In this document: positions 7,903-43,852 of the stretch, in pieces | Layout: every line of letters begins with the position of its first letter | Numbering within the stretch: the first letter of the stretch is position 1 | Assembly: GCA_900315935.1 (NCBI GenBank) | Contig: ONBB01000006.1 | Coordinates: 27,980-91,979 of the forward strand | Reading direction: 5' to 3' | Length of the DNA stretch: 64,000 nucleotides | DNA from: an uncultured Bacteroidales bacterium | GTDB taxonomy: Bacteria > Bacteroidota > Bacteroidia > Bacteroidales > P3 | The notes under the pieces: model-generated | Database searches by the model: none | What the model saw: the letters and a program-made list of their open reading frames with translations, nothing else | Told to the model about the DNA's origin: nothing | Translations under genes and position numbers: made by a program

Positions 7903-9441
7903 TTATTGTTGATTTATTATGATGTCGTAGATGAGCACCATGCGGGTGGTGATGCGGTGGCCGTCGCCGAGCACGCCGTAAGCCTGTTCGGAGGGCAGGA
8001 TGAGCCGGGCGCGGTCGCCGCGGCGCAGAGTGCGCAGGGCGGCGTCGACGCCTCGCGTAGGCTGGAGGCGGCCGACGACGACGGTGTCGCACACGTTACT
8101 GTACACCGTGGCGCCGTTCAGGGCTTCGACGCTGTAGGTGATGGCAACCGTGTCTTCATATTCGACGGGTGTGCCATGTCCGCGATGGGTTACCATGACA
8201 CGCGTGCCGGAGGGCAGGCGCGACATCTTCCAGCCACGGCGCGAGGCGTAGGCGTCAATCTGGGTCTCCTCGCTGTGGGCTATGTGGCGGTTGGCGTCGA
8301 TGAGGCTCTCTTTCAAGGTGTTGTCCTTGGCGGGCTGGAGGTCGACCGCAGGCACTTCGCGGCAGGCTGTGGCCAGCAGCAGGCAGCAAAGGGTGGCCAG
8401 CAGGCCGAGGTGGCGCTTCACTTTGGCCACGGTATCCGCCAGCGGGAGGCGGCTGGTGGCGCCGGCGGCACGTTGGTGGCCGCCGCCGTCGAAGAGGTCG
8501 TGGGCCATTTGGTTCACGTCATACTGTGTCTTCGAGCGCAGCGAGAGGCGCACCTTGTCGCCCTCCTCGCGCAGGAGGATGGCGCAGTCGGTGTCCTTGA
8601 GCTTCATCACCTCATTTACCAGACCCGTCAGGTCGGGGCTCGCCACGCCGAAGCGGCGCATCTCCTCCTCGCGGATGGTCATGAGGGCGAGGCTCTTCTC
8701 GGGGTAGAGTTCCAGCAGCTGGCTCATGGCGTGGCCGAAGAAGCGGAGGCGCTCGGGGGTGAAGGTGTTCTTGATGCGGCGGTTGATGTCCATGGGGTCG
8801 ATGCCGCACTGCGAGAGGTGGGCGGCGGCCAGGTAGAGGCTGGCGTCGCGGTTGGAGTAGGAGAAGCCGCCGGTGTCGGTGTTGATGCCGGTGTAGAGGC
8901 TGGTGGCGGCGTCGGGGCTGAAGGCATCCGCGCCGTAGAGGTCGCGGAAGAGCCAGTAGACCAACTCGCAGGCCGACGAGATATCGGGGTCCACCACCTC
9001 GAGGTGGAACTCCGAATGCTGGATTTTGAGTTGGGAGTGCTCGTGGTGGTCGATGAGGAGTTTTTGGCAGGTGGCGGCGCGCAGGCTGTCGGCCAGGCGG
9101 CCGGTGCGGCCGAGGTCGGCCAGGTCGACGCAGACGATGAGGTCGGCGCCGTCGATGGCCTGTTGGCATTCCGTGGGTTGGTCCTTTCCGCTGAGGATGA
9201 GGTCGGTATGGGGCAGCCAGCGGTAGTCCTCGGGGCATCCGTCGGGCAGCAGCATGGTGAGGTGGGCGGAGGTGTGGCGGCCGAGCAGGCTGTAGAGGCC
9301 GGTGAGCGACCCCACGGCGTCGCCGTCGGCGTTCATGTGGGCCACCAAAACGGCCTTCCGCACCCGCGCCAGCAGGGTGCGCAGGGCTGGGGCATCCCAA
9401 TCGGAGCCGATTTCGGCAGTGTATTTGCAGTCAATCATCAT
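7903..9441 (-). CDS. NrnA-like DHH phosphoesterase fused in frame to an FKBP lipoprotein
   Basis: Residues 1 to about 340 are a DHH/DHHA1 phosphoesterase of the NrnA type (nanoRNA and 3'-phosphoadenosine-5'-phosphate hydrolysis). HxNxDxD starts near 35, DHH is at 131-133 and GGGHQRAAGA near 319. Without a stop the frame continues into a hydrophobic signal-like segment ending ATAC and then an FKBP fold (VTHRGH, VAITYSVE, DAALRTLRRGDRARLILP, YGVLGDG). A GTG at 8421-8419 begins VKRHLGLL, a good lipoprotein signal start, so the isomerase may also be made separately. ATG 9441 (or 9438) was preferred over TTG 9477, which falls at the predicted transcription start. A heptad-like insert lies at residues 135-145. 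Confidence 0.82.
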   Translation of the reverse strand: MMIDCKYTAEIGSDWDAPALRTLLARVRKAVLVAHMNADGDAVGSLTGLYSLLGRHTSAHLTMLLPDGCPEDYRWLPHTDLILSGKDQPTECQQAIDGADLIVCVDLADLGRTGRLADSLRAATCQKLLIDHHEHSQLKIQHSEFHLEVVDPDISSACELVYWLFRDLYGADAFSPDAATSLYTGINTDTGGFSYSNRDASLYLAAAHLSQCGIDPMDINRRIKNTFTPERLRFFGHAMSQLLELYPEKSLALMTIREEEMRRFGVASPDLTGLVNEVMKLKDTDCAILLREEGDKVRLSLRSKTQYDVNQMAHDLFDGGGHQRAAGATSRLPLADTVAKVKRHLGLLATLCCLLLATACREVPAVDLQPAKDNTLKESLIDANRHIAHSEETQIDAYASRRGWKMSRLPSGTRVMVTHRGHGTPVEYEDTVAITYSVEALNGATVYSNVCDTVVVGRLQPTRGVDAALRTLRRGDRARLILPSEQAYGVLGDGHRITTRMVLIYDIIINQQ

Positions 9442-9485
9442 GTAGTTCAGCAGGTTGCAGCGTTCCTGCGGCTGCAATCCGACTG

Positions 9486-9493
9486 CAAATATA
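9486..9493 (-). promoter_or_regulatory. -7 box of the nrnA-FKBP gene
   Basis: On the minus strand TATATTTG matches the Bacteroidota -7 consensus TAnnTTTG. Transcription would begin near 9479, giving a leader of about 38 bases to ATG 9441. A clear -33 TTTG at the right distance is not seen. Confidence 0.5.
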
Positions 9494-9556
9494 CGACTTT
9501 TCCGCCGATTTTTATATTAAATCATAAAAATATTTTGGCAGGAATGCCAAAGGTTC

Positions 9557-9622
9557 GGTAGGGGGATGGTAGGGGATCTCTAGGGGAATACAAAGGCACT
9601 GGAAGTATATGGAAGCATTTGG
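9557..9622 (+). repeat. Dispersed two-part array, copy 2
   Basis: It consists of GGTAGGGGGAT, GGTAGGGGATC and TCTAGGGGAAT followed by ACAAAG and two to three GGATATGGAA-like 10-bp units. It lies 20 bases past the stop of the leftward GT-C gene. The transcribed strand is C-rich. Confidence 0.85.
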
Positions 9623-9641
9623 TACCAATCGGGATACTTTT

Positions 9642-12229: not shown

Positions 12230-12244
12230 TCTGAAGTTGTTGTT

Positions 12245-12320
12245 TATAAGTTGATATGTTGATAAGTTGATGTGGGGCAGGTTCACGCGACAGTTCATAT
12301 CACCTTATCAACCTATCAAC
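12245..12320. repeat. GTTGATAA-type repeat with inverted arm before prfB
   Basis: Units related to GTTGATAT/GTTGATAA lie at 12249-12272. Near-matching reverse-oriented units (CACCTTATCAACCTATCAAC) lie at 12301-12320, so imperfect arms flank a unique core. It occupies the prfB leader between the SRP RNA 3' end and the prfB start and matches the repeats around pyrB and pyrI. Confidence 0.7.
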
Positions 12321-12327
12321 AAAAAAA

Positions 12328-12423
12328 GGGCAAGCTGATTATATCGCACCGCTACAACCAAACACCCTTGCTGTATTCCTACCCTGGGGGATTCAATGGG
12401 AGCTGGTCGTATAAGACTTGCCC
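12328..12423 (-). ncRNA. ffs: Signal recognition particle RNA (4.5S type)
   Basis: Read on the minus strand, a closing stem GGGCAAG (12423-12417) / CTTGCCC (12334-12328) encloses the SRP domain IV signature. It includes GAATCCCCCAGGGTAGGAAT and ACAGCAAGGG, with a GGAA tetraloop and the AGCA internal-loop strand. A T7 run directly follows the stem, so its 3' half serves as terminator. SRP RNA guides membrane proteins to the translocon with Ffh. The predicted promoter lies 62-69 bases further upstream, so the primary transcript probably carries a 5' extension. The identification is from memory of the family signature. Confidence 0.85.
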
Positions 12424-12631: not shown

Positions 12632-12635
12632 CCGT

Positions 12636-17852: not shown

Positions 17853-19391
17853 TTACGGGTTTTGAATTACAACATTCAGGCCAAGGTCGGCGCCGAGGCG
17901 GAGCATCATCTGCCAGGCGGCGTCACGGTCGTTGGGGATCTGGCCGTCGAGGATGGCATCCTTGATGGCGTCCTTGATGGTGCCTATTTCGCGGCAGGGG
18001 CCGATGCCGAAGGTCTCCATGATGTCCTGGCCGGAGACGGGCGGCTGGAAGTTGCGTATGCGGTCGCGCTCCTCGAGTTCGACCAGCTTGCGCTTCACCA
18101 GCTCGAAATTGGCGCGGTGGCGGCGCACCTTGTCGGGGTTCTTGCTGGTGATGTCGGCGTTGCAGAGGCGCATGAGGTCGTCGATGTCGTCGCCCGCCTC
18201 GAAGAGGAGGCGGCGCACGGCGGAGTCGGTTACCTCGTCCTCGCTGAGCACGATGGGGCGCATGTGGAGCATGACCAGCTTCTCGACATATTTCATCTCG
18301 GGGCCCATGGGGAGTCGCAGGCGGCGGAAGATTTTCCTGACCATGCGGGCGCCGCGGGCCTCGTGGCCGTGGAAGGTCCAGCCCTGGCCGGCGATATAGC
18401 GTTTGACGCCGGGCTTGCCGATGTCGTGCAGCAGGGCGGCCCAGCGCAAGTAAAGCTGAAGGTTGAAAGTTGAAGGTTGAAGGTTGGCTGCCGCGGTCTG
18501 CGTAGTATCACAATTCACGACATTGTCCAGCACCTGCATGGTGTGGTAGAAGATGTCCTTGTGGCCGCGGCCGTCGACGGTCTCCACGCCGGCCAGGGCG
18601 CTGATTTCGGGCAGCACGAAGGGCATGAGGCCGCATTTGTGCATCAGCTTGAGCCCCACCGAGGGGCCGCAGACTCCTCCACCCCCCTGCGGGCGGTCCC
18701 CCTCCCCTTGGCAAGGGGTGGAGCCGGAGAGCATGATTTTGTTCAGTTCGGCGGTGATGCGCTCGGCGGAGACAATCTCGAGGCGATGGGCGTTGCGTGT
18801 GATGGCCTCGAGGGTCTCGTCGGCGATGCGGAAGCCCAATTGGCTGGCGAAGCGGACGGCGCGCATCATACGGAGGGGGTCGTCGCTGAAGGTAATGTCG
18901 GGGTCGAGCGGCGTGCGGAGGATGCCGGCGTCGAGGTCACAGATGCCGCCGAAGGGGTCAACCAGCTCGCCGTAGCGGTCGGCGTTGATGCAGACAGCCA
19001 GGGCGTTGACAGTGAAGTCGCGCCGCCGCTGGTCGTCCTCGAGGGTGCCGTTCTCGACGACGGGCTTGCGGCTGTCGCGGGAGTAGCTTTCGCGGCGGGC
19101 ACCAACGAATTCGAGTTCCATGTCGCGCAGGCGAAAATTGGCGGTGCCGAAGTTCTTGAAGACGGAGACCTTGCTGCCGCCGAGGACGGCGGAGGCTGCC
19201 TTGGCCAGCTCAATGCCGATATGCACCTCGCCGCCCTGCTCGCGGCCCACGCAGACGATGTCGATGTCGGAGCAGGGGCGCTGCAGGAAGTAGTCGCGCA
19301 CCACGCCGCCGACGATGTAGGCGTCGATGCCGAGGCGGTCGGCCTCAAGGCCGATGGCGCGGGTAACGTGCGGGGCTATCTCAATCGCCAT
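17853..19391 (-). CDS. cca: CCA-adding tRNA nucleotidyltransferase with HD domain
   Basis: It adds or repairs the CCA end of tRNA (or could be a poly(A) polymerase relative). It has 512 residues. The nucleotidyltransferase head has VGGVVRD (27-33) and DID (42-44), then RRRDFTVNA (122-130). An HD phosphohydrolase domain follows with LLHDIGKP (320-327). Two inserts look foreign: residues 223-245, from a palindromic element, and about 295-313, from a 7-bp array encoding NLQPSTFNLQL. Both keep the frame. It overlaps the preceding MORN-variant gene by 11 bases. Confidence 0.92.
   Translation of the reverse strand: MAIEIAPHVTRAIGLEADRLGIDAYIVGGVVRDYFLQRPCSDIDIVCVGREQGGEVHIGIELAKAASAVLGGSKVSVFKNFGTANFRLRDMELEFVGARRESYSRDSRKPVVENGTLEDDQRRRDFTVNALAVCINADRYGELVDPFGGICDLDAGILRTPLDPDITFSDDPLRMMRAVRFASQLGFRIADETLEAITRNAHRLEIVSAERITAELNKIMLSGSTPCQGEGDRPQGGGGVCGPSVGLKLMHKCGLMPFVLPEISALAGVETVDGRGHKDIFYHTMQVLDNVVNCDTTQTAAANLQPSTFNLQLYLRWAALLHDIGKPGVKRYIAGQGWTFHGHEARGARMVRKIFRRLRLPMGPEMKYVEKLVMLHMRPIVLSEDEVTDSAVRRLLFEAGDDIDDLMRLCNADITSKNPDKVRRHRANFELVKRKLVELEERDRIRNFQPPVSGQDIMETFGIGPCREIGTIKDAIKDAILDGQIPNDRDAAWQMMLRLGADLGLNVVIQNP
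18454..18488. repeat. Heptanucleotide array inside the cca gene
   Basis: Five plus-strand 7-bp units: AGCTGAA, GGTTGAA, AGTTGAA, GGTTGAA, GGTTGGC. Since 3 x 7 bp equals 7 codons, the coding strand gives a peptide of 7-residue period (NLQPSTF, NLQ...). Confidence 0.85.
18677..18723. repeat. Palindromic element inserted in the cca gene
   Basis: Terminal inverted 9-mers CTCCACCCC (18677-18685) and GGGGTGGAG (18715-18723) enclose a second palindrome CCCCTTG-G-CAAGGGG (18704-18718). It is read in frame as the Gly/Pro-rich segment at residues 223-245. It resembles the intergenic REP-like elements of other bacteria, here inside a coding region. Confidence 0.7.
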
Positions 19392-20907: not shown

Positions 20908-21621
20908 CTAGTTCTGCTTGAATTTGGTAATCATGTCGATGTCGTTGGGGCGGTCGTCGTCGGGGCGGTAGGAGACCTTGAGGTAGGCGGTGTCTTTGAG
21001 GAAGTCGATGGAGCCCACCTGCACATCGGTGATTTCCAGTCCGGTGCGCTGGCGGAGGTCGGCCAGGAGCTCCTGCCGGCGGTCGGGGCGGATGAGGTCG
21101 ATCTTCTCGTAGAGAATGATTTTGGTGGCGTCGCGGCGGGTGAGGCCGATGCTTTCGAGCAGCCAGCATACGAGGATGACCAGCATGTTGGCGGCGGCGA
21201 GGGTGGCGTAGCTGGTGGCCATGCTGAAGCCGTTGATGATGCTGACTCCGATGATGACGAAGAGGTAGGTCATCTCGCGCACGGGTATGGTGGTGGTGCG
21301 GTAGCGTATCATGCCGAAGATGGCGAAGAGGCCGAGGGCGAAGCCAATCTCGATGCTGAGGTTCTGTAGCGAGAAGAGCAGCAGGTAGATGACCACGGAG
21401 AAGAGCATGAAGGTGAAGTAGTAGTCGCGCCGGCGGGCTTTCTTATAGTAGAAGAAGTGGGTTATCACCCAGCATACCAGCAGGTTGAAAGCGAAACGCA
21501 GCAGGAGGTTCCAGAGGCTGGGGCCGTCGAAGAGGGGGATGCCGAGGAAGTCGTAGCTGGCAATCTGTTCGCCGAATTCTTGGGCGATGTCAGGGTCGTA
21601 GGCTGCTTGCAGGAGTTTCAT
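20908..21621 (-). CDS. DUF4956 membrane protein
   Basis: This 237-residue protein has about four to five membrane helices (residues about 36-160) and a soluble C-terminal domain of about 70 residues, the layout of DUF4956. It overlaps the VTC-domain gene by four bases. DUF4956 genes are known to accompany VTC polyphosphate polymerases, so it may help polymer synthesis or transfer at the membrane. The biochemical role is unknown. Confidence 0.85.
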   Translation of the reverse strand: MKLLQAAYDPDIAQEFGEQIASYDFLGIPLFDGPSLWNLLLRFAFNLLVCWVITHFFYYKKARRRDYYFTFMLFSVVIYLLLFSLQNLSIEIGFALGLFAIFGMIRYRTTTIPVREMTYLFVIIGVSIINGFSMATSYATLAAANMLVILVCWLLESIGLTRRDATKIILYEKIDLIRPDRRQELLADLRQRTGLEITDVQVGSIDFLKDTAYLKVSYRPDDDRPNDIDMITKFKQN

Positions 21622-22394
21622 GATGTGATTTTGTTTATGTACAACAATTTGGGTTTAAATCTATTGTGTTTGGCGGTGGGGTTGGTGAGGGCGGTGCCGA
21701 TGCAGTACTTGCTCATGCGGCGCGGCAGGACGTGGAGGTCGTGCAGGGCGCGCTCGATGGCCGAGGTGGGGGCGCCGACTTCGTGCTTGACCTCGATGAC
21801 GAGGGCGCGGGCGATGTCGGCGTCGAGGCCGGTGGCGCGATTGTGGAAACGGATGCCGAGGTCGATGGTTACGCGCTCGCTCATTCCGCGGTCCACCAAG
21901 GTGATACGGTCGAAACGGTTCTCGAGGCAGGGGGTTAGGGTGTTAGGAGTGAGGAGTGTGGAGTGAGGAGTGTGGTAGGGGGTGTTCTTTTCGATGAAGT
22001 CGCGCACCTCGGGCACCTCGAGGGCGGTATCGAAGAGGCTGACGTCAAGTGGGATGCGCACCTTGCGGGTTTTCTTCTTGTTGTCTTTGTTCTTGATTTC
22101 GAAGAAGGTGGTGTCGGTGGAGCGGTAGGTACGGATGCGCAGTTTCTGGCGGTTGAGCTTGCGGTTGTGGTGCATGAGGTACATGGCCAGGCCGGCAGTG
22201 TCGAAGTAGAGGGTGCGATACGGTGCCAGGGGTTCGTTATCAATATGTTGCACGTAGTATTGGCCGGCCACGCGTTCCAGCAGGGGCTCCAGCAGCGAAG
22301 CCGGGGCTATGTACTTCTGGTCCACGCGGTTCATCAGGCGGACGGCCTTCATGTCGTCCAGCCCGATGGGTGCCATCTGTGCAAGGATGCTCAT
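21618..22394 (-). CDS. VTC-domain polyphosphate polymerase-like protein
   Basis: VTC domains of the triphosphate tunnel fold polymerise polyphosphate from ATP in yeast, and bacterial versions are thought to act on polyphosphate or related polymers. The 258-residue protein shows the basic tunnel motifs RVDQKY (Lys27), RIRTY (87-91), the FFEIKNK strand and EVKHE near the end. An insert at about 138-155 (HTPHSTLLTPNTLTP) is encoded by a 7-bp array. It lies between the exported-protein gene and the DUF4956 gene with 4-base overlaps on both sides. Confidence 0.85.
   Translation of the reverse strand: MSILAQMAPIGLDDMKAVRLMNRVDQKYIAPASLLEPLLERVAGQYYVQHIDNEPLAPYRTLYFDTAGLAMYLMHHNRKLNRQKLRIRTYRSTDTTFFEIKNKDNKKKTRKVRIPLDVSLFDTALEVPEVRDFIEKNTPYHTPHSTLLTPNTLTPCLENRFDRITLVDRGMSERVTIDLGIRFHNRATGLDADIARALVIEVKHEVGAPTSAIERALHDLHVLPRRMSKYCIGTALTNPTAKHNRFKPKLLYINKITS
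21932..21980. repeat. Heptanucleotide array inside the VTC gene
   Basis: Seven plus-strand units of 7 bp: GGGTTAG, GGTGTTA, GGAGTGA, GGAGTGT, GGAGTGA, GGAGTGT, GGTAGGG. They lie in frame within the gene and encode the Thr/Pro/Leu/His-rich insert. Confidence 0.85.
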
Positions 22395-24983: not shown

Positions 24984-26078
24984 TTGCGTTACTTAAAAGT
25001 TTTGAATAATAAAAAACAGCCCCGGATTGTGATGGCGGTAACCAATGATTTGGTAACCGACCGCCGTGTGCTGCGCCATGCTGCTGCGCTGCGCGAGGCG
25101 GGCTATGCCGTCGACCTCGTCGGCAGGAACGACCTCCGTGTCCGGGCCAAGAAGACTTGGCGTTTCTATGCCGAGTACAATCTCCGCCTTTTCTTCCGTC
25201 TGCTGCGCATGCCGTGCGACCTGGTGTGGGCCAACGACACCGACACGCTCCTGGCCTCCTGGCTGGCGGCGCGTCTGCGGCGCAAAGCCCTGGTGATGGA
25301 CAGCCACGAGATTTTCCCCGAGGTGCCGGAGCTGGTGGGACGCAAAGGTGTGAAGCGTGTGTGGCAATGCATAGAGCGCTGGCTGATGCCGCGCTGCGAT
25401 GCCAACCTCACGGTCTGCCAGTCCGTGGCCGACCACTATAAGCGGACGCTAGGGGTGGATATGGCTGTGGTGCGGAATATGAGCGCGGAACGCGGAAGGT
25501 GGGATGTGGAGCACTCGACACCCAGCACCCAGCACTCACCACTGAAGACTCTCCTCTACCAGGGGGCTGTCAACCTGGGACGTGGCATTGACTGGGCCAT
25601 CGACGCGATGGAGCGCTTGCCGCAGTGCCGCCTGGTCATCGCCGGCGTGGGCGACCTCTACGACGAGATGCGGTCCTATGCCGCCTCGAAGCCGTGGGCC
25701 GGCCGCATCGAGTTCCTCGGCCGCGTGGAGCCTGATGCCCTTGCGCGCCTCACGCCGCAGGCCGATGTGGGTTTGTTGATGCTCGAAGACTTGGGGCTCA
25801 ACTACCGCTGTGCGCTGCCCAACCGCGTGGGCGACTTCATCGCCGCCGGCGTGCCGATGGTGGTGAGCGACATGCCGGAGATGGCTTCGGTGGTCGACAA
25901 GTACCACATCGGGGCCGTCATCGCCGCCCCGGGTGCCGAAGCCATGGCCGAGGCCATAGAGAAGGTACTCGCCCGCCCCAAGTCCTCCTACGATTTCGCC
26001 GCCGCGCGCGCCGACTTCGATTGGAACCAAGAGAAACGAATACTAATCAATATCCCCAATAACCTGTTAAACTCGTAA
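24984..26078 (+). CDS. Glycosyltransferase family 4
   Basis: This GT-B fold glycosyltransferase of about 364 residues has N-terminal VTNDLVTDRRV, typical of these enzymes, then LVWANDTDTL and MDSHEIFPE. The donor-binding C-terminal half has GRIEFLGRV, ALPNRVGDFIAAGVPMVVSD and the EX7E-like region near 300. An insert at residues about 169-187 (DVEHSTPSTQHSPL) derives from a 7-bp array. The start is uncertain: TTG 24984 is used, with TTG 25002 or ATG 25032 possible, the last leaving a short first strand. It lies three bases upstream of lepB. Confidence 0.85.
   Translation: MRYLKVLNNKKQPRIVMAVTNDLVTDRRVLRHAAALREAGYAVDLVGRNDLRVRAKKTWRFYAEYNLRLFFRLLRMPCDLVWANDTDTLLASWLAARLRRKALVMDSHEIFPEVPELVGRKGVKRVWQCIERWLMPRCDANLTVCQSVADHYKRTLGVDMAVVRNMSAERGRWDVEHSTPSTQHSPLKTLLYQGAVNLGRGIDWAIDAMERLPQCRLVIAGVGDLYDEMRSYAASKPWAGRIEFLGRVEPDALARLTPQADVGLLMLEDLGLNYRCALPNRVGDFIAAGVPMVVSDMPEMASVVDKYHIGAVIAAPGAEAMAEAIEKVLARPKSSYDFAAARADFDWNQEKRILINIPNNLLNS
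25483..25545. repeat. Heptanucleotide array inside the GT4 gene
   Basis: Nine 7-bp units: GCGCGGA, ACGCGGA, AGGTGGG, ATGTGGA, GCACTCG, ACACCCA, GCACCCA, GCACTCA, CCACTGA. They are read in frame and give a peptide of 7-residue period (HSTPSTQ, HSP...). Confidence 0.8.
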
Positions 26079-32634: not shown

Positions 32635-32647
32635 CCGCTTGGGGTTC

Positions 32648-32713
32648 TCTAGGGGAATGGTAGGGGATCTCTAGGGGAATAGAAGGGCACTGGAAGGATA
32701 TGGAAGCTTATGG
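32648..32713 (+). repeat. Dispersed two-part array, copy 4
   Basis: It consists of TCTAGGGGAAT, GGTAGGGGATC and TCTAGGGGAAT followed by GGCACTGGAA, GGATATGGAA, GCTTATGG. It lies between converging hflX and uvrC, 28 bases past the uvrC stop. The uvrC transcript would read the C-rich strand. Confidence 0.85.
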
Positions 32714-32740: not shown

Positions 32741-34609
32741 CTAGGGATGGAAATGGTTGTAGACGGCCTGTGCCTTGGTGGGGCCGATGGCCTCGGCGAG
32801 GTCGGCCTCGGCGAGGCGCGAAATCTGCTTGACGCTGCCGAAGCGTAACAGCAGGTCGCGTGCGGTTTGGGGGCCGATGCCGGGGATGTCGGTCAGCGCG
32901 GTACGGAAGGTCCCTTTGGAACGTTTGTCCTTGTGGAAGGTGATGGCGAACCGGTGCACCTCGTTCTGTATCTGCTCCAGCAGGTGGAAGAGCGCGTCGG
33001 TGGGCTTGAGCTGGACTACCTTGATTTCTGGAGTGGATTTTTCCACATAGCAGAGTAGCTGCGAGGTGCGGTGGCGGTCGTTCTTGGCGAGGCCGGCGAT
33101 GGGGATGTCGAGGTGGAGGGTGTCTCGCAGCACGCGGTGCGCCATCTGCATCTGCCCCTCGCCGCCGTCGACGATGAGGAGGTCGGGCAGCGGCTTCTGC
33201 TCCTCGCGGAGGCGGCGGTAGCGGCGCTCGATGACCTCGGCCATGGAGGCGTAGTCGTCGGGACCCTCGACATTTTTAATGTTGAACTTGCGGTATTCCT
33301 TGCGGTTGGGCTTGCCGGCGGAGAAGCGCACCATGCCGGCCACGGGGTAGGCTCCTTGGATGTTGCTGTTGTCGAAGCACTCGATTTCCATCGGCAGGCG
33401 CGGCAGTGCGAGGGCCTGCTGGAGGCGTTCGAGCAGTTTGAGTGCCTGGGGCGCGGCGTCGCCGTCGGTGAGGGCGCGCTGGTGGTTGCACTGCTTGCGG
33501 TAGGCTTCCACGTTGCGTAGCGAGAGCTCGAGCAACTTGCGGCGGTCGCCGCGGGGCGCGGTGTTCTGCTGCAGGTAGTCGGCCGGCAGGTCGGGGAGGG
33601 GGAAGGGCAGCACGGCCTCGGCGGCGGTGCTCTGGGTCTGCTGGCGCAGCTGGGGCAGCAGGGTGGCTAGGAGTTCGGCGTCGGTCTCGTCGAGCTGCTT
33701 CTTCACCTCGTTGTTGAAGCTGTAGATGATGGCGCCGTTGCGTATGCGCATGTAGTTGAGCCAGGCGTGTCGCTCGTCGCTGAGGATGGAGCAGACGTCG
33801 AGGTCGCGCACGTTGGTGCCCACCACCGTGGAGCGGCTCTGATATTCCTCCAGCAGGCGTATGCGGCGCTTGACGGCCTCGGCCTCCTCGAAGCGCAACT
33901 CCTTGGCCAGGGCGGTCATCTGCCGCTTGAGGTCGGAGAGGATGTGGTCGAAGTCGCCACGCAGGATGCGCCGTATGTTTTCAAAGATTTGTAGGTATTC
34001 CTCGCGGCTCTGCAATCCCGCGCAGGGGGCGGCGCAGAGACCGATCTGGTGCTTCATGCAGGGGCGGTTCGAATTTTGAATTCTGAATTTTGAATTTTGA
34101 GTGCCGAAATCCAAAGTCCGGTTGCAGGTGCGGTACTGGAACAGCTGGCGTATGATGTCCTGCAGCTGGCGCAGGACGACGCCGTTGGGGTAGGGGCCGA
34201 AGAACTGGCCCTTGGGCAGCCCTGGATGCTTGCGCACGTAGAGCAGGCGCGGGTAGGGTTCGTCGGTGATGAGGAGGTAGGGGTAGGACTTGTCGTCCTT
34301 GAGCATCGAGTTGTAGCGCGGCTGGTACTGCTTGATGAGCGAGTTCTCGAGCAGCAGGGCGTCCACCTCGGTGGCCACCACGGTAACGCGCGTGTCGGCG
34401 ATGTGGCGCACCAGCATCTTGATTTTGGCGCTCTTGTCGTCGTAGTGGGAAAAATAGCTGCTGACGCGTGAACGGAGGTTGCGGGCCTTGCCGACATAAA
34501 TGACCTTGCCGTCGGCGTCCAGGTGCTGGTACACACCGGGGCTCTCGGGCAGTGTCTTCAGCCGCAGGGCTATCTGCTCGATGTGGGGATTGATGGAGGC
34601 GTCAATCAA
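32741..34609 (-). CDS. uvrC: Excinuclease ABC subunit C
   Basis: UvrC makes the two incisions of nucleotide excision repair with UvrAB. The 622 residues contain the GIY-YIG domain (SPGVYQHLD, VIYVGKARNLRSRVSSYF), a UvrB-binding UVR region (about 200-240), the RNase H-like nuclease domain (IECFDNSNIQG, DLLIVDGGEGQ) and C-terminal helix-hairpin-helix motifs (DIPGIGPQTARDLL). A heptad-encoded insert GTQNSKFRIQNSN lies at about 169-181, just before the Cys-rich turn. TTG 34609 was chosen because it overlaps the gldH stop by eight bases. GTG 34645 is an alternative. Confidence 0.93.
   Translation of the reverse strand: MIDASINPHIEQIALRLKTLPESPGVYQHLDADGKVIYVGKARNLRSRVSSYFSHYDDKSAKIKMLVRHIADTRVTVVATEVDALLLENSLIKQYQPRYNSMLKDDKSYPYLLITDEPYPRLLYVRKHPGLPKGQFFGPYPNGVVLRQLQDIIRQLFQYRTCNRTLDFGTQNSKFRIQNSNRPCMKHQIGLCAAPCAGLQSREEYLQIFENIRRILRGDFDHILSDLKRQMTALAKELRFEEAEAVKRRIRLLEEYQSRSTVVGTNVRDLDVCSILSDERHAWLNYMRIRNGAIIYSFNNEVKKQLDETDAELLATLLPQLRQQTQSTAAEAVLPFPLPDLPADYLQQNTAPRGDRRKLLELSLRNVEAYRKQCNHQRALTDGDAAPQALKLLERLQQALALPRLPMEIECFDNSNIQGAYPVAGMVRFSAGKPNRKEYRKFNIKNVEGPDDYASMAEVIERRYRRLREEQKPLPDLLIVDGGEGQMQMAHRVLRDTLHLDIPIAGLAKNDRHRTSQLLCYVEKSTPEIKVVQLKPTDALFHLLEQIQNEVHRFAITFHKDKRSKGTFRTALTDIPGIGPQTARDLLLRFGSVKQISRLAEADLAEAIGPTKAQAVYNHFHP
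34071..34105. repeat. Heptanucleotide array inside uvrC
   Basis: Plus-strand units GAATTTT, GAATTCT, GAATTTT, GAATTTT, GAGTGCC have exact 7-bp period. On the coding strand they give the peptide QNSKFRI-QNS with 7-residue period. Confidence 0.9.
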
Positions 34610-35090
34610 GGTTGTATTCCAGCTTGGCCTCCTCGATGTGTACACTGAAGGCGCGCACGCCCTCGAGGTCGTACTGCGAGGTGGCCTGTTTGACCTCGTA
34701 GCGGTAGGTGCCAGATTTGTTGAAGGTGAAGTAGTTGTGGACGCGGGCGGTTACTCTGCGGTTGGTACCCTCCTGCTGGCCCTTCCAGCGGCCGTTCTCC
34801 TTGAGGGGGATGACGGGGCTGATGTGGCGCTGGGTGCCGTCGGCACCGTAGATGTCGACAATCAGCGGCAGGCGGTCGTAGCGGAAGACTGCGGTGTCGA
34901 CCACCACGGTGTAGTCGATATGGAAAAAGAGGTCGCTGCTGGGTATCGCTATCTCATACTGCTGCGGAGTGAAGCGGTTCCAAGTGGAGCTGAATGTGCG
35001 CTCCTCGTCGAGAATCACCTTGTTGCCGCAGGCCGTAAGGGAAAGGGCGAAGATGAAAAATGAAATGCGAAAAATGAAATGGCGAAGCAT
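34602..35090 (-). CDS. gldH: Gliding motility/type IX secretion lipoprotein GldH
   Basis: This 162-residue lipoprotein has lipobox SLTAC (Cys21). The mature part follows the GldH layout: DEERTFSSTW at the start, a beta-rich centre (DYTVVVDTAVF, PLIVDIYGADG, VIPLKENGRWKG) and the end FNKSGTYRYEVKQ, YDLEGV. GldH is needed for gliding or type IX secretion in Bacteroidota, although not every secretion system uses it. It supports the type IX signals found on the two large surface proteins in the window. A heptad array (AGTTAAG) directly precedes its ATG. Confidence 0.85.
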   Translation of the reverse strand: MLRHFIFRISFFIFALSLTACGNKVILDEERTFSSTWNRFTPQQYEIAIPSSDLFFHIDYTVVVDTAVFRYDRLPLIVDIYGADGTQRHISPVIPLKENGRWKGQQEGTNRRVTARVHNYFTFNKSGTYRYEVKQATSQYDLEGVRAFSVHIEEAKLEYNLD

Positions 35091-35125
35091 AACTCTTAAC
35101 TCTTAACTTTTAACTCTTAACTGCA
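35086..35125. repeat. Heptanucleotide array at the asd/gldH junction
   Basis: Plus-strand AACTCTT/AACTTTT units at 7-bp period span the asd stop, the 12-base gap and the gldH ATG. On the coding strand they read AGTTAAGAGTTAA..., giving asd its C-terminal LRVKS and TAA stop. The same repeat ends the ATP-grasp-like gene near 43.0 kb. Confidence 0.85.
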
Positions 35126-36098
35126 AAAGTTGCTGCATAATCTGGATGGCGTTGGTGGCGGCACCCTTGCGGATGTTGTCGGCCACCACCCATAGATTGA
35201 GGCTGTTGGGCTGCGAAGGGTCGCGCCGCAGGCGGCCGACGAAGACCTCGTTGCGGTGGTGGGCGGTGATGGGCATGGGGTAGAGGTTGGCCGCGGGGTC
35301 GTCCTGCACCACCACGCCGGGCGTCTGCTCCAGCAGGTGGCGCACCTCGGCGAGGTCGTAGTCGCGACGGAGCTCCACATTGACCGCCTCGCTGTGTCCG
35401 CCAACCACGGGCACACGCACCACTGTGGGCGACACCTCGATGGCGGGGTCGGCGAATATCTTGCGCGTCTCGTCGATGAGCTTCTGCTCCTCGGTGGTGT
35501 AGCCGTCGGGCAGGAAGTCGCCTCCGTGGGGGAAAAGGTTGCGGTGGATGGGGTGGGGGTAGGCGCTTTCCACATTCCACTCGCCACGCTCCTCGGCCTC
35601 CAGTTGTCGGATGGCGTTGAGGCCGGTGCCGGTGATGCTCTGGTAGGTGGCGACGACGATGCGGCGGATGCCGTATTCGCGCTGCAGGGGGCTGAGGGCC
35701 AGCACCATCTGGATGGTGGAGCAGTTGGGGTTGGCGATAATGCGGTCGGAGGGGCGCACGGCGCCGATGTTGATCTCAGGCACCACCAGCGGCACCTCGG
35801 GGTCTTTGCGCCAGGCCGACGAGTTGTCGATTACCGTGGTGCCCTGCGCGGCAAAGAGGGGCGCATACTGGCGCGAGGCGGCGGCACCGGCCGAGAAGAT
35901 GGCATAGTCGGGCCGCTGGGCGATGGCCTCGTCGACGGAGACGACGGTCAGCTCGCGGCCGGCGAAAGGGAGGATGGTGCCTGCGGAGCGGGGCGAGGCG
36001 GCAGCGATAATGGTGTGGTCGGCAAAGCCGAATTCTTCGAGTACGGTGAGCATTTCGCGGCCCACGAGGCCGGTGGCTCCTATGACGGCTATTTTCAT
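35103..36098 (-). CDS. asd: Aspartate-semialdehyde dehydrogenase
   Basis: It makes aspartate semialdehyde for lysine/diaminopimelate, threonine and methionine. The 331 residues begin with the NADP motif GATGLVGREM (9-18 region). The catalytic cysteine is in NPNCSTIQMV, and substrate residues lie in VVPEINIGAV and RVPVVGGHSE. The start is MKIAVIGATG. The C-terminal LRVKS and stop come from a heptad array. It lies 10 bases downstream of the large secreted-protein gene. Confidence 0.95.
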   Translation of the reverse strand: MKIAVIGATGLVGREMLTVLEEFGFADHTIIAAASPRSAGTILPFAGRELTVVSVDEAIAQRPDYAIFSAGAAASRQYAPLFAAQGTTVIDNSSAWRKDPEVPLVVPEINIGAVRPSDRIIANPNCSTIQMVLALSPLQREYGIRRIVVATYQSITGTGLNAIRQLEAEERGEWNVESAYPHPIHRNLFPHGGDFLPDGYTTEEQKLIDETRKIFADPAIEVSPTVVRVPVVGGHSEAVNVELRRDYDLAEVRHLLEQTPGVVVQDDPAANLYPMPITAHHRNEVFVGRLRRDPSQPNSLNLWVVADNIRKGAATNAIQIMQQLLQLRVKS

Positions 36099-36108
36099 TG
36101 CGAGGTGA

Positions 36109-38640
36109 TTATCTGAGGAGGGTAACGGTGCCCTGTCTGATATGGGTCTTGTTGGGGAAGAAGGCGTTGGTGTAGCGGATGATGTAGACGTAGGAGCCCT
36201 GTACGCAGGGGTTGCCGTTGAGGTCGCGGCCGTCCCACGCGCAGTCGGCACCCTCGCAGCGGAACACCATCTCGCCCATGCGGTTGTAGATAATCATCTC
36301 CTGGCGCAGGGTCTGGGTGCTGACCGAGTGGAAGAGGTTGTTGCCGGCGGGATTGTCGGGCGTGAAGATGTTGGGCACCCAGAAGCTCTCCTTGTTGAAG
36401 GGCAGGGTGATGGTGGCGGTGTCGATACAGCCGTAGGGGCTGACCTCGACCAGCATGATGACGGCGGAGTCGAGCTCGACGGGGATGGTGTAGTAGGCTA
36501 CGGGAGTGGTCTGGTCCGGTGCGTTGGGGATAATCCAAGTGCGCTCGCCGCCGCCGGTGGAGAGGTCGGTCAGCTCCACGTCGAGGTGGTCATAGTCGAA
36601 GTAGTCGAGCGATGCCTGGAGGCGTGCGGTGAGGGGGTGGAGGGTGAAGTCGAGCTGGACGATGGAGTCGCAGCCGTAGCGGTTGTGGAGCACCAGGGTG
36701 TCCTGGTCGAAGGTGGCGGTGTTGGACTGGGTGTAGGTCTTGCCGTTTTGCCAGGTGATGGGTTTGCAGTCGACGATGGGGTCGAGGGTGTGCGACACGT
36801 CGTAGACGGTGAGGTTGAGGCGGACGACGGAGTCGCACCCGGGTTCCGACTGGAGCCGTACCGAGGGGTAGGGGGGAGTGGTCGTCTCGCGGTATTCATT
36901 TCCGTCGACATTCCATTTGTACACCTCGCCGCGGCAGATGCCGGCGTAGACGGTGGTGTCGAAGTTGGGGAAGACGCGCACGATGGTGGAGGCGCTGTTT
37001 TGGCATCCGCTGACGAAGTCGATGGAGGACTGTATCCGTATGGTGTCTATCTTGTTGGCCACCAGGCCGTCCGCCGGCAGGGTGTTGCTGTTGAGGGTGA
37101 TGGAGATGCTCTTGTCGGTGCCGTTGTCGACGATGTTGCCCACGTCGATGGCAGAGGTGGGCAGGGGGATTTCCTGTCCGTTGGCGACACGGCTGACGTA
37201 CCAGTTGACCAGATCGGTGTCCTGAATGGAGCGGAACTCGAGGGCGGGGGCGACGGAGTTGCCGAGGCAGACATCCTGCTGGGCAATGTTGAAGGAGAGG
37301 TCGTTGAGGGTGTCGATACCGATGGTGACGGTGTCGTAGAGGTGGTACCAGTCGCCGTTGGCGTTGCGGAAGCGCATGTGGTAATAGTAGCGCGAGACGC
37401 ACTTGGGGCTCACGTAGGCGAGGGTGAGGTTGGGGCATGCGGATGCACTGGAGGCGCGGGCAGTGCAGTAGCCGTTGGTGTCGCCGGGTATATTCCCGAG
37501 CTGCACGGCCGAGTCGGCGCCGTTCTGGTCGGGCAGGATGCGGTACCAGCCGTCGACCACCTCGGTGGTGCCGTAGGGGGTGAAGCGGAATGCCTTGCGG
37601 GTGATATTGGAAGTGCTTGTGTTGTAGCCCGTGGGGAAGAAAGCGGCAGGGGCGCCGGGGGAAATCCAATAGAGGGGGTTGTCGGGGTCGTTCGACTTGG
37701 TCTGCGGCAGGCCCGTGGCGTTCTGTATGCCGATGACACCGTTGCCACCGTTCCAGCTAGAGCACACCTGCCGTTGCTTGACATGTACCTCTATGATGTT
37801 GGAGCCTTCGTAGCAGACTATCTGGTAGGTGCATCGGAGGTTAGTGCAACTGAACTGCGGCACGTCGTTCCACGAGCAGATAATCTTGCGGCAGGGGTAT
37901 TCGTCCAGCACGCCATAGTAGATGCCCCAGTTCGGGTCGCCCGTGGTGCCGTGTACGGAGGGACTGGGATAGGTGTCCTCATAGACACCGTAGATGGCGT
38001 CGTGCATGCGGTTGAACGTCTCGGTCGAACCGGGGGCACCCGAGGTGGTCGGTGTCCACGGCAGAGGAGCTGAATATGACCAGGGGTTGCTCGTGCCGGA
38101 GCCGAAGTCGGTGGTGAATGTTACCAGACCATTGGCTCCCAGCCGGAAAGCGTTCTTGCGGATGCCGAAGAAGTAGAATGGATAGGGGATGTTGGTAGAA
38201 GCAGAGGCAAAGTCATCGTCGGTGGAGATGGGCATCTTCTTCTTGTAGGGGTTGTTGGCGTCGATGGTGGCGTTGTATCCGAGGTAGAACGTGGTGTCTG
38301 GCGGGTTGAAGGGAATCTCGTCGACATAGTAGTAGCCGTTGGTGTACTGCACGGGGATGTAGGGCATGCAGGAGAGGGTGATTTGACGGTCGCGGCAGGT
38401 AATCACCGTGTCCCACCCCATCGCCCGATACTGCGGCAGGGACACGTGGTCGTGCTTCTGCTTGATTTGCACCTCGGGGCAGGGGTTCTGCACCTCGGGC
38501 CACTGGTAGATGCCGCATTCGACGGCGGGGCTGGGCTGCGAGGTGCCGGTCGGGCCGCCACCGGGTTGGGCGCTTGCGAGGGCGGGCATAACCATTGCCA
38601 ACAATATTAACAGGCTGGTTCTATTGAATTTACGTGTCAT
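36109..38640 (-). CDS. Large secreted protein with gliding-motility type C-terminal domain
   Basis: This 843-residue exported protein has a signal peptide (about 1-25, ending ALASAQ). The body is rich in Thr, Asn, Asp and aromatic residues, with Ig-like or beta-sandwich spacing. The end has FWVPNIFTPDNPAGNN, IIYNRMGEMVFRCEG and WDGRDLNGNPCVQGSYVYIIRY, the CHU_C/type B sorting domain recognised by type IX secretion. It is probably an adhesin anchored on or released from the cell surface. ATG 38640 was chosen over an upstream TTG because it sits 22 bases downstream of a strong promoter. Confidence 0.88.
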   Translation of the reverse strand: MTRKFNRTSLLILLAMVMPALASAQPGGGPTGTSQPSPAVECGIYQWPEVQNPCPEVQIKQKHDHVSLPQYRAMGWDTVITCRDRQITLSCMPYIPVQYTNGYYYVDEIPFNPPDTTFYLGYNATIDANNPYKKKMPISTDDDFASASTNIPYPFYFFGIRKNAFRLGANGLVTFTTDFGSGTSNPWSYSAPLPWTPTTSGAPGSTETFNRMHDAIYGVYEDTYPSPSVHGTTGDPNWGIYYGVLDEYPCRKIICSWNDVPQFSCTNLRCTYQIVCYEGSNIIEVHVKQRQVCSSWNGGNGVIGIQNATGLPQTKSNDPDNPLYWISPGAPAAFFPTGYNTSTSNITRKAFRFTPYGTTEVVDGWYRILPDQNGADSAVQLGNIPGDTNGYCTARASSASACPNLTLAYVSPKCVSRYYYHMRFRNANGDWYHLYDTVTIGIDTLNDLSFNIAQQDVCLGNSVAPALEFRSIQDTDLVNWYVSRVANGQEIPLPTSAIDVGNIVDNGTDKSISITLNSNTLPADGLVANKIDTIRIQSSIDFVSGCQNSASTIVRVFPNFDTTVYAGICRGEVYKWNVDGNEYRETTTPPYPSVRLQSEPGCDSVVRLNLTVYDVSHTLDPIVDCKPITWQNGKTYTQSNTATFDQDTLVLHNRYGCDSIVQLDFTLHPLTARLQASLDYFDYDHLDVELTDLSTGGGERTWIIPNAPDQTTPVAYYTIPVELDSAVIMLVEVSPYGCIDTATITLPFNKESFWVPNIFTPDNPAGNNLFHSVSTQTLRQEMIIYNRMGEMVFRCEGADCAWDGRDLNGNPCVQGSYVYIIRYTNAFFPNKTHIRQGTVTLLR

Positions 38641-38772: not shown

Positions 38773-38850
38773 GGTAGGGGAATGGTAGGGGAACGGTAGG
38801 GGAATACAAAGGCACTGGAAGGATATGGACGCTTATGGAAGGTTATGGGC
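38773..38850 (+). repeat. Dispersed two-part array, copy 5
   Basis: Three GGTAGGGGAAY units are followed by ACAAAG and GGCACTGGAA, GGATATGGAC, GCTTATGGAA, GGTTATGGGC. This is the clearest view of the 10-bp second part. It starts about 50 bases past the stop of the leftward beta-barrel gene (38900). The rest of 38693-38899 holds no gene. Confidence 0.88.
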
Positions 38851-40225: not shown

Positions 40226-40240
40226 AAGGCTGGTGTTTTT

Positions 40241-41047: not shown

Positions 41048-41057
41048 AATGTGGGTA

Positions 41058-41861
41058 TTATTGTTTGCGTTTGTTCTTCAGGTTGTCCATGCGCTCGCGC
41101 AGAGGCTCCACCACATGCTGCTCCAGCTGGCGGTTGTCGGGTAGCAGGCGGATGACCAGCCTGCCGCCGAAGGAATGGGAGAGGCTCTCGTGGGTGGCCT
41201 CGTTGAGGGCCAGCAGGCGGTCGCCCCAGTCGCCGGCCTCGTAGGCGATGAGGGAGAGCGAGAGGAGCGTGTCGGCGGGCTCTTCCACGGCCTCCTCCGC
41301 GAAGGCGATAAGGCTGGTAACCTCGATGATTTCCTGCACCGGCGCGGCGACGGAGTCCACGCATTCGCCGGAGGCAGAAACCGCCGCCACGGCAGGGCTG
41401 GAAAATCTAGAAAAACTAGAATTTCTAGAAGGACTAGAATCTCTAGATAATCTAGAATCTCTAGATAATCTAGAATCTCTAGAAAATCTAGAATTTCTAG
41501 AAAGACTAGTATCACTAGTATCCCCCTTTGCCTCGGCCACGAGCAGGGGTGCCTCCTGCCTGGGCAGCATCCCGCCCGTGCGCAGCGCCGGTACCATGAG
41601 GGCCGCTATGACGGCTGCCGCCGCGCTCCAGCGCAACAGGGCCGGCCAGAGGGGTTGCGGCTGCTGCGGCACGGCTGCGGCATACTTGACCGCCTCGTCG
41701 CACTCCAGGCGCGGCGCCTCGCGGTAGAGGGCCAGCTCCTCGGCAGCCTCGGGATGGCTTTCCAGCCATGCCTCGACGGCGGCGCTCTCCGCGGCGGAGA
41801 GGTCGCCCTCGGCGTAGCGCAGGAGCCAAAGCTCGTAGTTGTTATTATCTATTGTTGTCAT
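41058..41861 (-). CDS. Anti-sigma-factor-like membrane protein with Ser-Arg repeat
   Basis: This 267-residue protein has an N-terminal cytoplasmic domain (about 1-76) with an anti-sigma pattern (LLRYAEGDLSAAESAAVEAW), one membrane helix (about 77-96) and a periplasmic domain. Just after the helix, residues about 114-155 are a Ser-Arg-x tripeptide repeat encoded by a CTAG array of 9-bp period. ATG 41861 lies 17 bases inside the sigma gene end and was preferred to TTG 41867. It should bind and restrain the ECF factor. The C-terminal part is basic. Confidence 0.82.
   Translation of the reverse strand: MTTIDNNNYELWLLRYAEGDLSAAESAAVEAWLESHPEAAEELALYREAPRLECDEAVKYAAAVPQQPQPLWPALLRWSAAAAVIAALMVPALRTGGMLPRQEAPLLVAEAKGDTSDTSLSRNSRFSRDSRLSRDSRLSRDSSPSRNSSFSRFSSPAVAAVSASGECVDSVAAPVQEIIEVTSLIAFAEEAVEEPADTLLSLSLIAYEAGDWGDRLLALNEATHESLSHSFGGRLVIRLLPDNRQLEQHVVEPLRERMDNLKNKRKQ
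41407..41518. repeat. CTAG array: 13 CTAG sites at exact 9-bp spacing
   Basis: CTAG occurs at 41407, 41416, 41425, 41434, 41443, 41452, 41461, 41470, 41479, 41488, 41497, 41506 and 41515. Most units read CTAGAATCT or CTAGATAAT. The array lies in frame within the anti-sigma gene and encodes the Ser-Arg-x repeat. CTAG is normally among the rarest tetranucleotides in bacterial DNA. Confidence 0.95.
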
Positions 41862-42348: not shown

Positions 42349-42418
42349 TCGTTCTGTTCCGTTTTCATACTATAGTTGCGCAAGTGGAGCAGAATATTAC
42401 AGCCGGCACAAACTTTTT

Positions 42419-42991
42419 TTACAGAAAAAGATGCTCGACGAGGATTTTCACCCCCAGGCCGACCAGCACCAGGCCGGCCACCAGGGTGGCGATGCGCTCG
42501 GGAACGGGGATGCGGCGGTTGCCGAGCCAGACGCCCAGCAGCGAGACGGCAAAGGTGATGGCCCCGATGAGGGCGACGACCCACAGCACGGTAGGCAGCG
42601 GGTGCTGCAAGCCCAGCCCGATGCCGACGGCGAAGGCGTCGATGCTGGTGGCCACGCCGAGAAGAACGAACTGCAGGGGCGAATTGCCATTCGCACCATG
42701 CTCGTCGGGCGAATCATGATTCGCCCCTACGGCATCCACTATCATCTTGCCGCCGATGAGGGCCAGCAGACCGAAGGCCACCCAGTGGTCGACGACCTCG
42801 ATGAAGGCGCGGGCCACGTCGCCGATGAGGGCGCCCAGCAGGGGGAACCCGCCCTGACAGAGGCCGAAGATGAGGGCCAGCAGCAGGCCGCGGCGGGCGG
42901 TGAGCCTGCTGCGGAAGGCGGTGGTGGCCGACACCACCAGGGAGTCGACACAGAGCGCCAGCGCCAAAAGAAATGCCTCAATAAAACCCAT
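42419..42991 (-). CDS. mntP: Manganese efflux pump MntP
   Basis: This 190-residue membrane protein exports Mn2+. Six helices are visible with the paired DxxxV/DAFAVG motifs: CVDSLVVSATTAF near 14-26 and ATSIDAFAVGIGLG in the second half. The loop between helices 3 and 4 (about 88-105) is encoded by a palindromic DNA element inserted in frame. The array AGTTAAG directly precedes its ATG. No manganese riboswitch (yybP-ykoY) is recognisable in the 18-base upstream gap. Confidence 0.92.
   Translation of the reverse strand: MGFIEAFLLALALCVDSLVVSATTAFRSRLTARRGLLLALIFGLCQGGFPLLGALIGDVARAFIEVVDHWVAFGLLALIGGKMIVDAVGANHDSPDEHGANGNSPLQFVLLGVATSIDAFAVGIGLGLQHPLPTVLWVVALIGAITFAVSLLGVWLGNRRIPVPERIATLVAGLVLVGLGVKILVEHLFL
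42676..42730. repeat. GGGGCGAAT-type palindromic element inside mntP
   Basis: A perfect 20-bp palindrome GGGCGAATCATGATTCGCCC (42707-42726) is preceded by an imperfect hairpin GGGGCGAATTGCCATTCGCACC (42676-42697) in two half-arms. The element ends with CCCCTAC. Similar GTAGGGGCGAAT repeats are, from memory, dispersed in several bacterial phyla. Here it is translated. Confidence 0.8.
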
Positions 42992-43030
42992 ACTCTTAAC
43001 TCTTAACTCTTAACTCATAACTCTTAACTT
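42990..43030. repeat. Heptanucleotide array at the ATP-grasp/mntP junction
   Basis: ACTCTTA-type 7-bp units run from the mntP ATG through the upstream gene's stop codon. On the coding strand they give the upstream protein its C-terminal LRVMS and a TAA. It is nearly the same as the asd/gldH junction. Confidence 0.85.
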
Positions 43031-43852
43031 CTCATGCGCCACCATCCCCATGGTATGGCGGAGGTTGAGTTCGGCCACGTGGATGCTGCCGTCGGCACAG
43101 ACCATGAGGTCGACGCCAAGCGGTCCGCGGTAGTGCGGAAAGATGGTGTCCGCCAGCCACTGCTCGATGCGCCCCCGAGTGTCGCCCAGGGGGTAGGCGG
43201 CGGCGATGCGGTCGTCGCTCCAGGGCAGGTTCTCCTTGTAGACACCGCTGCCGGTGCGGAAGAGGGAATAGCCGAGGAAGGTGCCGTCCATGTATTCCAA
43301 CGCCAGATCGGCCACTACCTCGCGTCGGGGCTCGGCGATGGCGCAGCGTTGGTTGCGGATGGTTTTGGCCAGCCAGTTGCGGTCGATGTCGGACAGCTTG
43401 CCGTGCAGCCAGCGCAGGCCGCGGCCGGCACCGCTCCACGGAGCCTTGAGCACCCAGTGGGGGCGCTCGGTGAAGAGTGCCTCGACCTCTTCTATATTAT
43501 ATATAGCACGGCAGTCGGGCTGCAGGGGCAGCACGGTGGTGCGGTGCTGCAGACGGCGGATGGTGGCTAGACAATCGTCGGAGGGTAGGAGCGAGGCGGG
43601 AACGCCTGCCCGGAGAAGCTGGTGCTTGAGGACGGCATTCCAACCCCAAGCCACCACGGAATTGAAAATTGAAAATTGAAAATTGAAAGTTGGCAGGTCG
43701 TAGACCGAGGTGCAGTGGGCATCGGGGTAGAGCACCTGCATGAGGTGCGCGTCGCGTTGCGCGAACTGCACGGCCGAGCGGGGCGGGATATAAAGAGCAC
43801 GACCGCTGGCCATGCAGAGGTCGTGCTCGGGGTTGAAGATGCAGAGTTGCAT
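43010..43852 (-). CDS. ATP-grasp-like protein of unknown function
   Basis: This 280-residue protein begins with LCIFNPEHDLCMASG. Its C-terminal part resembles an ATP-grasp fold (HWVLKAPWSGAGRGLRW, REVVADLALEYMDGTF, PLGVDLMVCADGSIHVAELNLRHTMGM). It may ligate or recognise a peptide-like substrate, but no specific member is recognised. A heptad-encoded insert TFNFQFSIFNS lies at residues 55-65, and the C-terminal LRVMS comes from the junction array. It lies seven bases downstream of serA. Confidence 0.75.
   Translation of the reverse strand: MQLCIFNPEHDLCMASGRALYIPPRSAVQFAQRDAHLMQVLYPDAHCTSVYDLPTFNFQFSIFNSVVAWGWNAVLKHQLLRAGVPASLLPSDDCLATIRRLQHRTTVLPLQPDCRAIYNIEEVEALFTERPHWVLKAPWSGAGRGLRWLHGKLSDIDRNWLAKTIRNQRCAIAEPRREVVADLALEYMDGTFLGYSLFRTGSGVYKENLPWSDDRIAAAYPLGDTRGRIEQWLADTIFPHYRGPLGVDLMVCADGSIHVAELNLRHTMGMVAHEKLRVMS
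43661..43694. repeat. Heptanucleotide array inside the ATP-grasp-like gene
   Basis: Four exact ATTGAAA units (43661, 43668, 43675, 43682) are followed by a degenerate one. On the coding strand they give the peptide FNFQFSI-FN with 7-residue period. Confidence 0.92.

Follow-up and report, generated by a model that had tools for sequence, protein, structure and literature searches.

Short tandemly repeated repetitive (STRR) sequences are heptanucleotide repeats of filamentous cyanobacteria, reportedly described by Mazel in 1990, and Vioque is said to have found them in the RNase P RNA of cyanobacteria in 1997 (cited in PMC2858038). Here, tandem arrays of 7-bp units are described from an uncultured Bacteroidales bacterium, in which they lie between genes and in frame inside genes for conserved proteins. 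The stretch analysed (the window) comprises 64,000 nt, positions 27980-91979 of contig ONBB01000006.1 (C14), and is part of a 97%-complete, 2.29-Mb draft assembly of 31 contigs. It is likely that these heptamers are STRR-like tandem repeats that have been spread and remodelled genome-wide in the genus (the grouping used by the genome search, with 59 genomes in the RNase P comparison) and that they are neutral or selfish, not made for the proteins that carry them. They resemble STRRs in being dispersed, degenerate 7-bp tandem units with many copies, some of them inside RNase P RNA genes, a likeness judged on period, dispersal, and location. They differ in that STRRs were described from heterocyst-forming cyanobacteria, whereas the host here belongs to the Bacteroidales, and in that in-frame protein inserts, unit change at fixed sites, and array-core-array hairpins are documented here.

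Short repeats in bacteria were surveyed in 2007, reportedly by Mrazek. In the available portions of two later papers, that survey is cited for heptamers being the commonest short repeats in many bacteria, for a reason that is unsettled (cited in PMC4679880, PMC4692102). TAACTGA direct repeats have been described, with a patchy distribution, in Beggiatoaceae, cyanobacteria, and five Bacteroidetes; the points of likeness are heptamer direct repeats, patchy occurrence, and presence in some Bacteroidetes. In the portion of that source available, they are one fixed unit that contains a stop codon in the forward reading and, in Maribeggiatoa, lies mostly just upstream of start codons (PMC4679880). 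In contrast, 44 units were found here, many of them genic, and the canonical form of TAACTGA is absent (AACTCAT is one substitution off). Geobacter metallireducens carries 7- and 8-mer tandem arrays between and within genes, some as opposite-strand pairs, and tandem 7- and 8-mers, both genic and intergenic and with opposed pairs, are also found here, but the accessible part of that report gives a single consensus per family, reads the arrays as regulatory, and contains no analysis of inserts in proteins (PMC2700814). The GGGAATC-type heptamer arrays of Xanthomonas and Nostoc are likewise dispersed, but from the extract at hand they are over-represented outside genes, form G-quadruplexes, and have one main unit per organism (PMC4692102). 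Tandem repeats of Bacillus are also held at constant size while their sequence varies among families, although the units given in the available text are 52 or 20-21 nt long (PMC8161180). The association with Y1 transposases that marks REP/RAYT palindromes (repetitive extragenic palindromes and their associated tyrosine transposases) was not found here (2 of 20 loci). Rickettsia palindromic elements are palindromic inserts that stand in frame in conserved proteins and have a conserved sequence. In-frame hairpin inserts in conserved proteins occur here as well, but their arms consist of heptamer arrays of varying sequence and few of them have a short core in common, which places them outside that definition. 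Heptamer repeats are therefore known in other bacteria, and what is new here is unusually clear turnover at fixed sites inside proteins; a literature search of limited breadth on heptamer repeats turned up nothing on this genus, and the two papers found to name Colimorpha are, by their titles, microbiome studies of the horse and the cow.

Arrays were detected by a tandem-repeat search (Tandem Repeats Finder, TRF) and a period scan in which the score is the best 14-position match to a given period. The heptamer arrays of the window are listed here, with octamers, a minor period-8 class, given apart below.

18457..18486, minus strand: array of CAACCTT (sense) inside the CCA-adding enzyme gene 17853-19391, encoding NLQPSTFNLQ.
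21945..21972, minus strand: array of CACTCCT (sense) inside the VTC-domain gene 21618-22394, encoding TPHSTLLTPNT.
25510..25545, plus strand: degenerate heptamer array (AGCACTCGACACCCAGCACCCAGCACTCACCACTG) inside the family 4 glycosyltransferase (GT4) gene 24984-26078, encoding HSTPSTQHSP.
34071..34100, minus strand: array of TCAAAAT (sense) inside uvrC 32741-34645, encoding QNSKFRIQNS.
43658..43693, minus strand: array of TCAATTT (sense) inside the ATP-grasp-like gene 43010-43852, encoding FNFQFSIFN.
42991..43029, minus strand: array of AACTCTT that runs over the 3' end of the ATP-grasp-like gene and the intergenic gap beyond it.
35088..35122, no strand assigned: AACTCTT array between genes 34602-35090 and 35103-36251.
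6881..6969, no strand assigned: heptamer arrays paired in inverted orientation between genes (GGTTTAGGGTTTA / CCTTAAACCTTAAAC), with a hairpin predicted (fold z-score -4.5).

An initial annotation of the window had reported exact 7-bp arrays in five genes. Four of these stand, with scores of 13/14 in CCA, VTC, and UvrC and 14/14 in the ATP-grasp-like protein (a name taken from that annotation, as the protein has no Pfam match), whereas the GT4 array is degenerate (12/14; TRF gives 2.4 units at 25519-25535). The peptides it had listed for CCA, UvrC, the ATP-grasp-like protein, and GT4 are all present. A degenerate case in nrnA (about 9010-9045) was rejected as a sixth example, its period-7 score of 8/14 being lower than its own period-9 score of 9. 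The GT4 loop with the degenerate heptamers is strongly variable among 24 aligned congener rows. At this loop, the congeners G001, G004, and G012 (L366, L367, L377) have LTPGPSPxGEG...PLSxxRGAxGEA-like peptides that resemble another inserted palindrome.

The period scan covered 451,979 bases of the own genome, about one fifth of it, made up of the window and stretches of contigs C14, C25, and C29, the last two being long contigs sampled after matches in an earlier genome search. This sample holds 35 period-7 arrays, 7 of period 8, 2 of period 9, and 16 of period 11 (a separate family), with none at periods 5, 6, 10, 12, or 13. Five fourth-order Markov simulations, which served as the control for chance, gave no period-7 arrays. 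Enrichment of period 7 over 6, 8, and 9 had been named in advance as the comparison that could refute the idea, and it is found (35 vs 0, 7, and 2) in this 452-kb sample rather than genome-wide. Period-7 arrays numbered 35 per 252 kb in the congener G001, 28 per 400 kb in G012, 8 per 78 kb in G023, and 7 per 40 kb in G036; these densities are similar to or above that of the own genome and may be high, as the stretches were partly picked around already known genes or matches. Among 18 genomes from other families of the order (20 stretches, 370 kb), one period-7 and two period-8 arrays were found, a comparison to be read with the caution that their G+C content of 39% is lower than here. Of 198 genomes of the order, 13 contain the pattern of three AAAATTS units followed by AAAA and 8 contain its reversed control (13 vs 0 in the own genome), and matches outside the genus are therefore not clearly above composition. 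Plasmid searches with array letters returned no match and were uninformative, since BLAST masks low complexity.

The samples of the genus contain 44 distinct units when rotation and strand are ignored, 15 canonical units being present in the own sample. Single substitutions join 42 of the 44 into one cluster, while letter-shuffled units (200 trials) gave a largest cluster of 17 on average and 34 at most. Judged from the unit sequences, the cluster fits descent with modification. The consensus unit is C-free on one strand in 91 of 113 arrays, compared with 21% of random genome 7-mers, and the C-poor strand is the locally G-richer strand in 57 of 90 (p 0.015), a weak replication-strand signal. 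With genes predicted by an own codon-usage script, 20 of the 35 arrays of the own sample lie wholly inside genes, 10 at gene edges, and 5 between genes; the wholly genic share (20/35, and 16/35 in G001 and 10/28 in G012) is below the coding fraction of 87-88%. The sense unit is stop-free in 42 of 46 wholly genic arrays and the antisense unit in 17, and the C-rich strand is the sense strand in 38. Units are common to arrays inside and between genes, and the suggestion in the initial annotation that one process acts on coding and non-coding DNA is probably correct.

The arrays keep the reading frame, as had been noted. Because 7 and 3 have no common factor, a heptamer array gives the same seven codons in every frame, which are all open or all closed. 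This arithmetic results in the seven-residue peptide signature, and no special mechanism is needed.

Alignments were made for UvrC (86 rows from 110 loci, near-identical ones dropped), CCA (30 rows), VTC (27), and the ATP-grasp-like protein (30). The UvrC relatives (80 of 117 kept, 56-81% identity) are labelled Bacteroidales or Bacteroidetes, come mostly from rumen or gut samples, and include Candidatus Colimorpha. The four alignments contain 95 inserts of at least 5 residues (UvrC 54, CCA 12, VTC 16, ATP-grasp-like 13). When period 7 was called at 12 or more matching positions of 14, it was found in 13 of the 95 (UvrC 4, CCA 4, VTC 5, ATP-grasp-like 0) and in 18 of 1900 random segments from those proteins, which may overlap arrays; period 8 was found in three inserts, period 10 in three, period 11 in one, and periods 5, 6, 9, and 12 in none. 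The array loop of UvrC lies between Cys174 and Cys196, both invariant in a 24-row alignment, and at this loop 54 of the 86 rows are without an insert, heptamers are found in 2, and the other 30 contain an insert of a different, non-heptamer kind. Inserts at CCA residue 292 occur in 5 of 30 rows (three of period 7), the other 25 having none of at least 5 residues, and VTC has inserts at residue 142 in 8 of 27 rows (three of period 7) and at residues 52-55 in three rows (two of period 7). At the ATP-grasp site, the array stands in place of a segment of similar length. The alignments thus indicate that the arrays are insertions in UvrC, CCA, and VTC, absent from most rows, and the earlier proposal that all were insertions is not supported at the ATP-grasp site. 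That annotation also placed the arrays at expected surface loops; in the one protein modelled, UvrC, the insert is predicted as coil with a predicted local distance difference test score (pLDDT) mostly below 50 (model mean pLDDT 72.6, predicted template modelling score 0.36).

The turnover of units is clearest at residue 56 of the ATP-grasp-like protein, where 12 of 30 species have heptamer arrays and the remainder have a non-repetitive segment, often of similar length. Six units were found at this site: AAAATTG, AAAATTC, ACTCTCC, AATGGAG, AATTATC, and ACACCTC. The congener G015 has the mixed form CAATTCT-CCATTCT-CCATTCT, which, read as sequence, joins the CAATTTT and CCACTCT units through single substitutions. 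All 12 carriers fall outside the seven-species basal group of the tree. A step in copy number was seen in a single case, the CCA site, where the difference between the close congeners G001 and G004 is exactly 21 nt (three units, seven codons). Conservation at orthologous sites was also seen: the arrays of L055 and L256 are nearly identical, L054 and L348 form a second pair, and at the end of the ATP-grasp-like gene (42991..43029) the AACTCTT unit is also found in several congeners, with a different sequence in others. Unit turnover at fixed sites, inverted (hairpin) copies, and RNase P inserts are additions to the initial annotation.

An RNase P RNA match was found in 54 of 59 genomes of the genus. 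A GGTTATA-type array followed by GGCTGACGC lies in the RNase P RNA of G036 (one of 30 loci returned), and arrays of this type are also found in that of G023 and G001, both picked for length. The G023 insert has two complementary arms and a fold z-score of -0.05 that covers only part of the insert. No RNase P RNA match was found in the own genome; candidate explanations are a long insert, a gap in the assembly, and the filter used in the search.

Inverted partners of at least 11 bp within 130 bp were found for 5 of the 35 arrays of the own sample. The uvrC genes of two congeners contain in-frame inverted heptamer pairs, at the loop of the window's array in G012 and elsewhere in G001, and for both inserts a strong hairpin is predicted (z -6.1 and -7.1). 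When the uvrC hairpin of G001 was used to search that genome, 72 matches were obtained, 30 of them listed as loci. By eye, a loop of the form TTGGCTGACGC..AAACAAAT.CACTG recurs between differing flanks at no fewer than four places of G001 (uvrC, cca, and two others), and a fifth among the matches listed has GGCTGACGC with a different loop. Additionally, GCTGACGC or GTTGACGC directly borders 8 of 156 distinct arrays (G001, G012, G036, and the genome of L071), each time at the 3' end of a C-poor array; 6 of the 138 occurrences of GCTGACGC adjoin such an end, with 0.08 expected. Neither core was seen near arrays of the own sample. Among 9-mers near arrays in five genomes, none stood out as a common flank, GCTGACGC being confined to a subset.

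If the heptamers are STRR-like repeats that spread and change genome-wide, slippage or unequal exchange, working in steps of 7 nt, would carry point mutations along an array, and the unit would drift while the period stays 7. New sites would be seeded by dispersed copies of arrays or hairpins, with template switching or a trans-acting enzyme as candidate routes. Selection would only filter, removing copies that break genes; genic copies would persist where the net length change is divisible by 3, the sense unit is free of stop codons, and the copy falls in a tolerant loop or an extendable RNA helix. Several points weigh against this reading. The UvrC loop varies in length anyway, as its 30 rows with non-heptamer inserts demonstrate, and the coding-filter evidence is partly circular, because an array inside an open frame must be stop-free and a gene-breaking array is scored as edge or intergenic; both points lower our confidence. 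The shuffle control covers letters only, and arrays born independently under a narrow sequence preference could give a similar picture. Array presence at the ATP-grasp site has no phylogenetic signal (9 changes vs a shuffled mean of 9.6), and inheritance and fresh gain are therefore not separated. Three coding arrays of the window do not fold as hairpins (z 0.2, -0.7, 1.8), and with the core next to so few arrays, most cannot be tied to a core element. No enzyme or target-site signature was found; Y1 transposases were considered as the driver and rejected, since 2 of 20 Y1_Tnp loci had a period-7 array in their flanks (about 1.5 kb), no more than expected from the genome-wide density. The comparisons are between species, and slippage itself was not observed.

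A dedicated mobile element with a hairpin structure, composed of an array, a GGCTGACGC core, and a second array in inverted orientation and moved by an enzyme in trans, with single arrays as its decayed arms, is an unlikely but serious alternative. It would account for the common loop between differing flanks in G001, the core in other genomes, the excess of GCTGACGC at C-poor ends, and the hairpin inserts within uvrC, but the core is missing beside the great majority of arrays and beside all of those in the own sample, few own arrays have an inverted partner, and no linked Y1 transposase signal was found (target duplications were not searched systematically). Its fuller version, which we hold to be slightly more doubtful, is an uncatalogued class of element in which a short core (GGCTGACGC in several species) is flanked by two C-poor heptamer arrays in inverted orientation. 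It would be copied into genes, RNase P RNA, and gaps, its arms indifferent to frame and drifting to new units with the 7-bp period held, and much of the variety of loops in the conserved proteins of the genus would be its work. The conservation of some arrays at orthologous sites would also be expected if they had a function, regulatory in the gaps and as useful flexible linkers within proteins, and were retained by selection or served to vary expression, and the available parts of two papers propose a regulatory role for heptamer arrays elsewhere (PMC4679880, PMC2700814). Heptamers are found, however, in a minority of rows (UvrC 2/86, CCA-292 3/30, VTC-142 3/27) and the units change at one site (ATP-grasp), and function is considered improbable. 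That the arrays are chance low-complexity sequence or an assembly artefact is suggested by their simple sequence and the draft state of the genome, but the empty simulations, the strict period of 7, and arrays at orthologous sites in other assemblies make this hardly credible.

For the probable reading as STRR-like repeats under turnover, the genus is informative: dozens of sequenced species display presence and absence, a three-unit step, and unit change under a constant period of 7 at orthologous protein sites. With turnover visible at fixed sites, what sets the period of 7 and how arrays reach new sites become directly testable. Peptides that recur, among them QFSIFNF, QNSKFKI, HSSLLTP, and SGQWSVV, should be annotated as repeat footprints, not as conserved motifs.

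The octamer arrays of the window are given below; no strand is assigned to them.

1043..1140: octamer arrays paired in inverted orientation (GTTGATAT / TATCAACG), with a hairpin predicted (fold z-score -9.0).
2067..2163: octamer array GTTGATAC/T of 12 copies, for which no inverted partner was found up to 130 bp away.
12242..12320: octamer arrays paired in inverted orientation (GTTGATAA / TATCAACC), fold z-score -2.7.

In the own sample, only period 7 was commoner than period 11 among the periods 5-13. Similar blocks, in which 11-bp units of the GGTAGGGGAAT type precede 10-bp or related units of the TGGAAGGATA type, were located by the tandem-repeat search at five places of the window:

49-115
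32641-32713
38773-38848
46124-46204
57492-57566

The congener G012 has a distinct family of 11-bp hairpins formed by TACGGTAGTAT arrays with a loop of 5-9 nt, nearly identical at 12 places (L264, L265, L267, L268, L296, L298, L301, L304, L305, L307, L308, L309). The window also contains a 68-bp tandem repeat of 2.7 copies at 49830-50012 and an 18/36-bp tandem repeat, TCTAGAAAAACTAGAATC, at 41401-41522.

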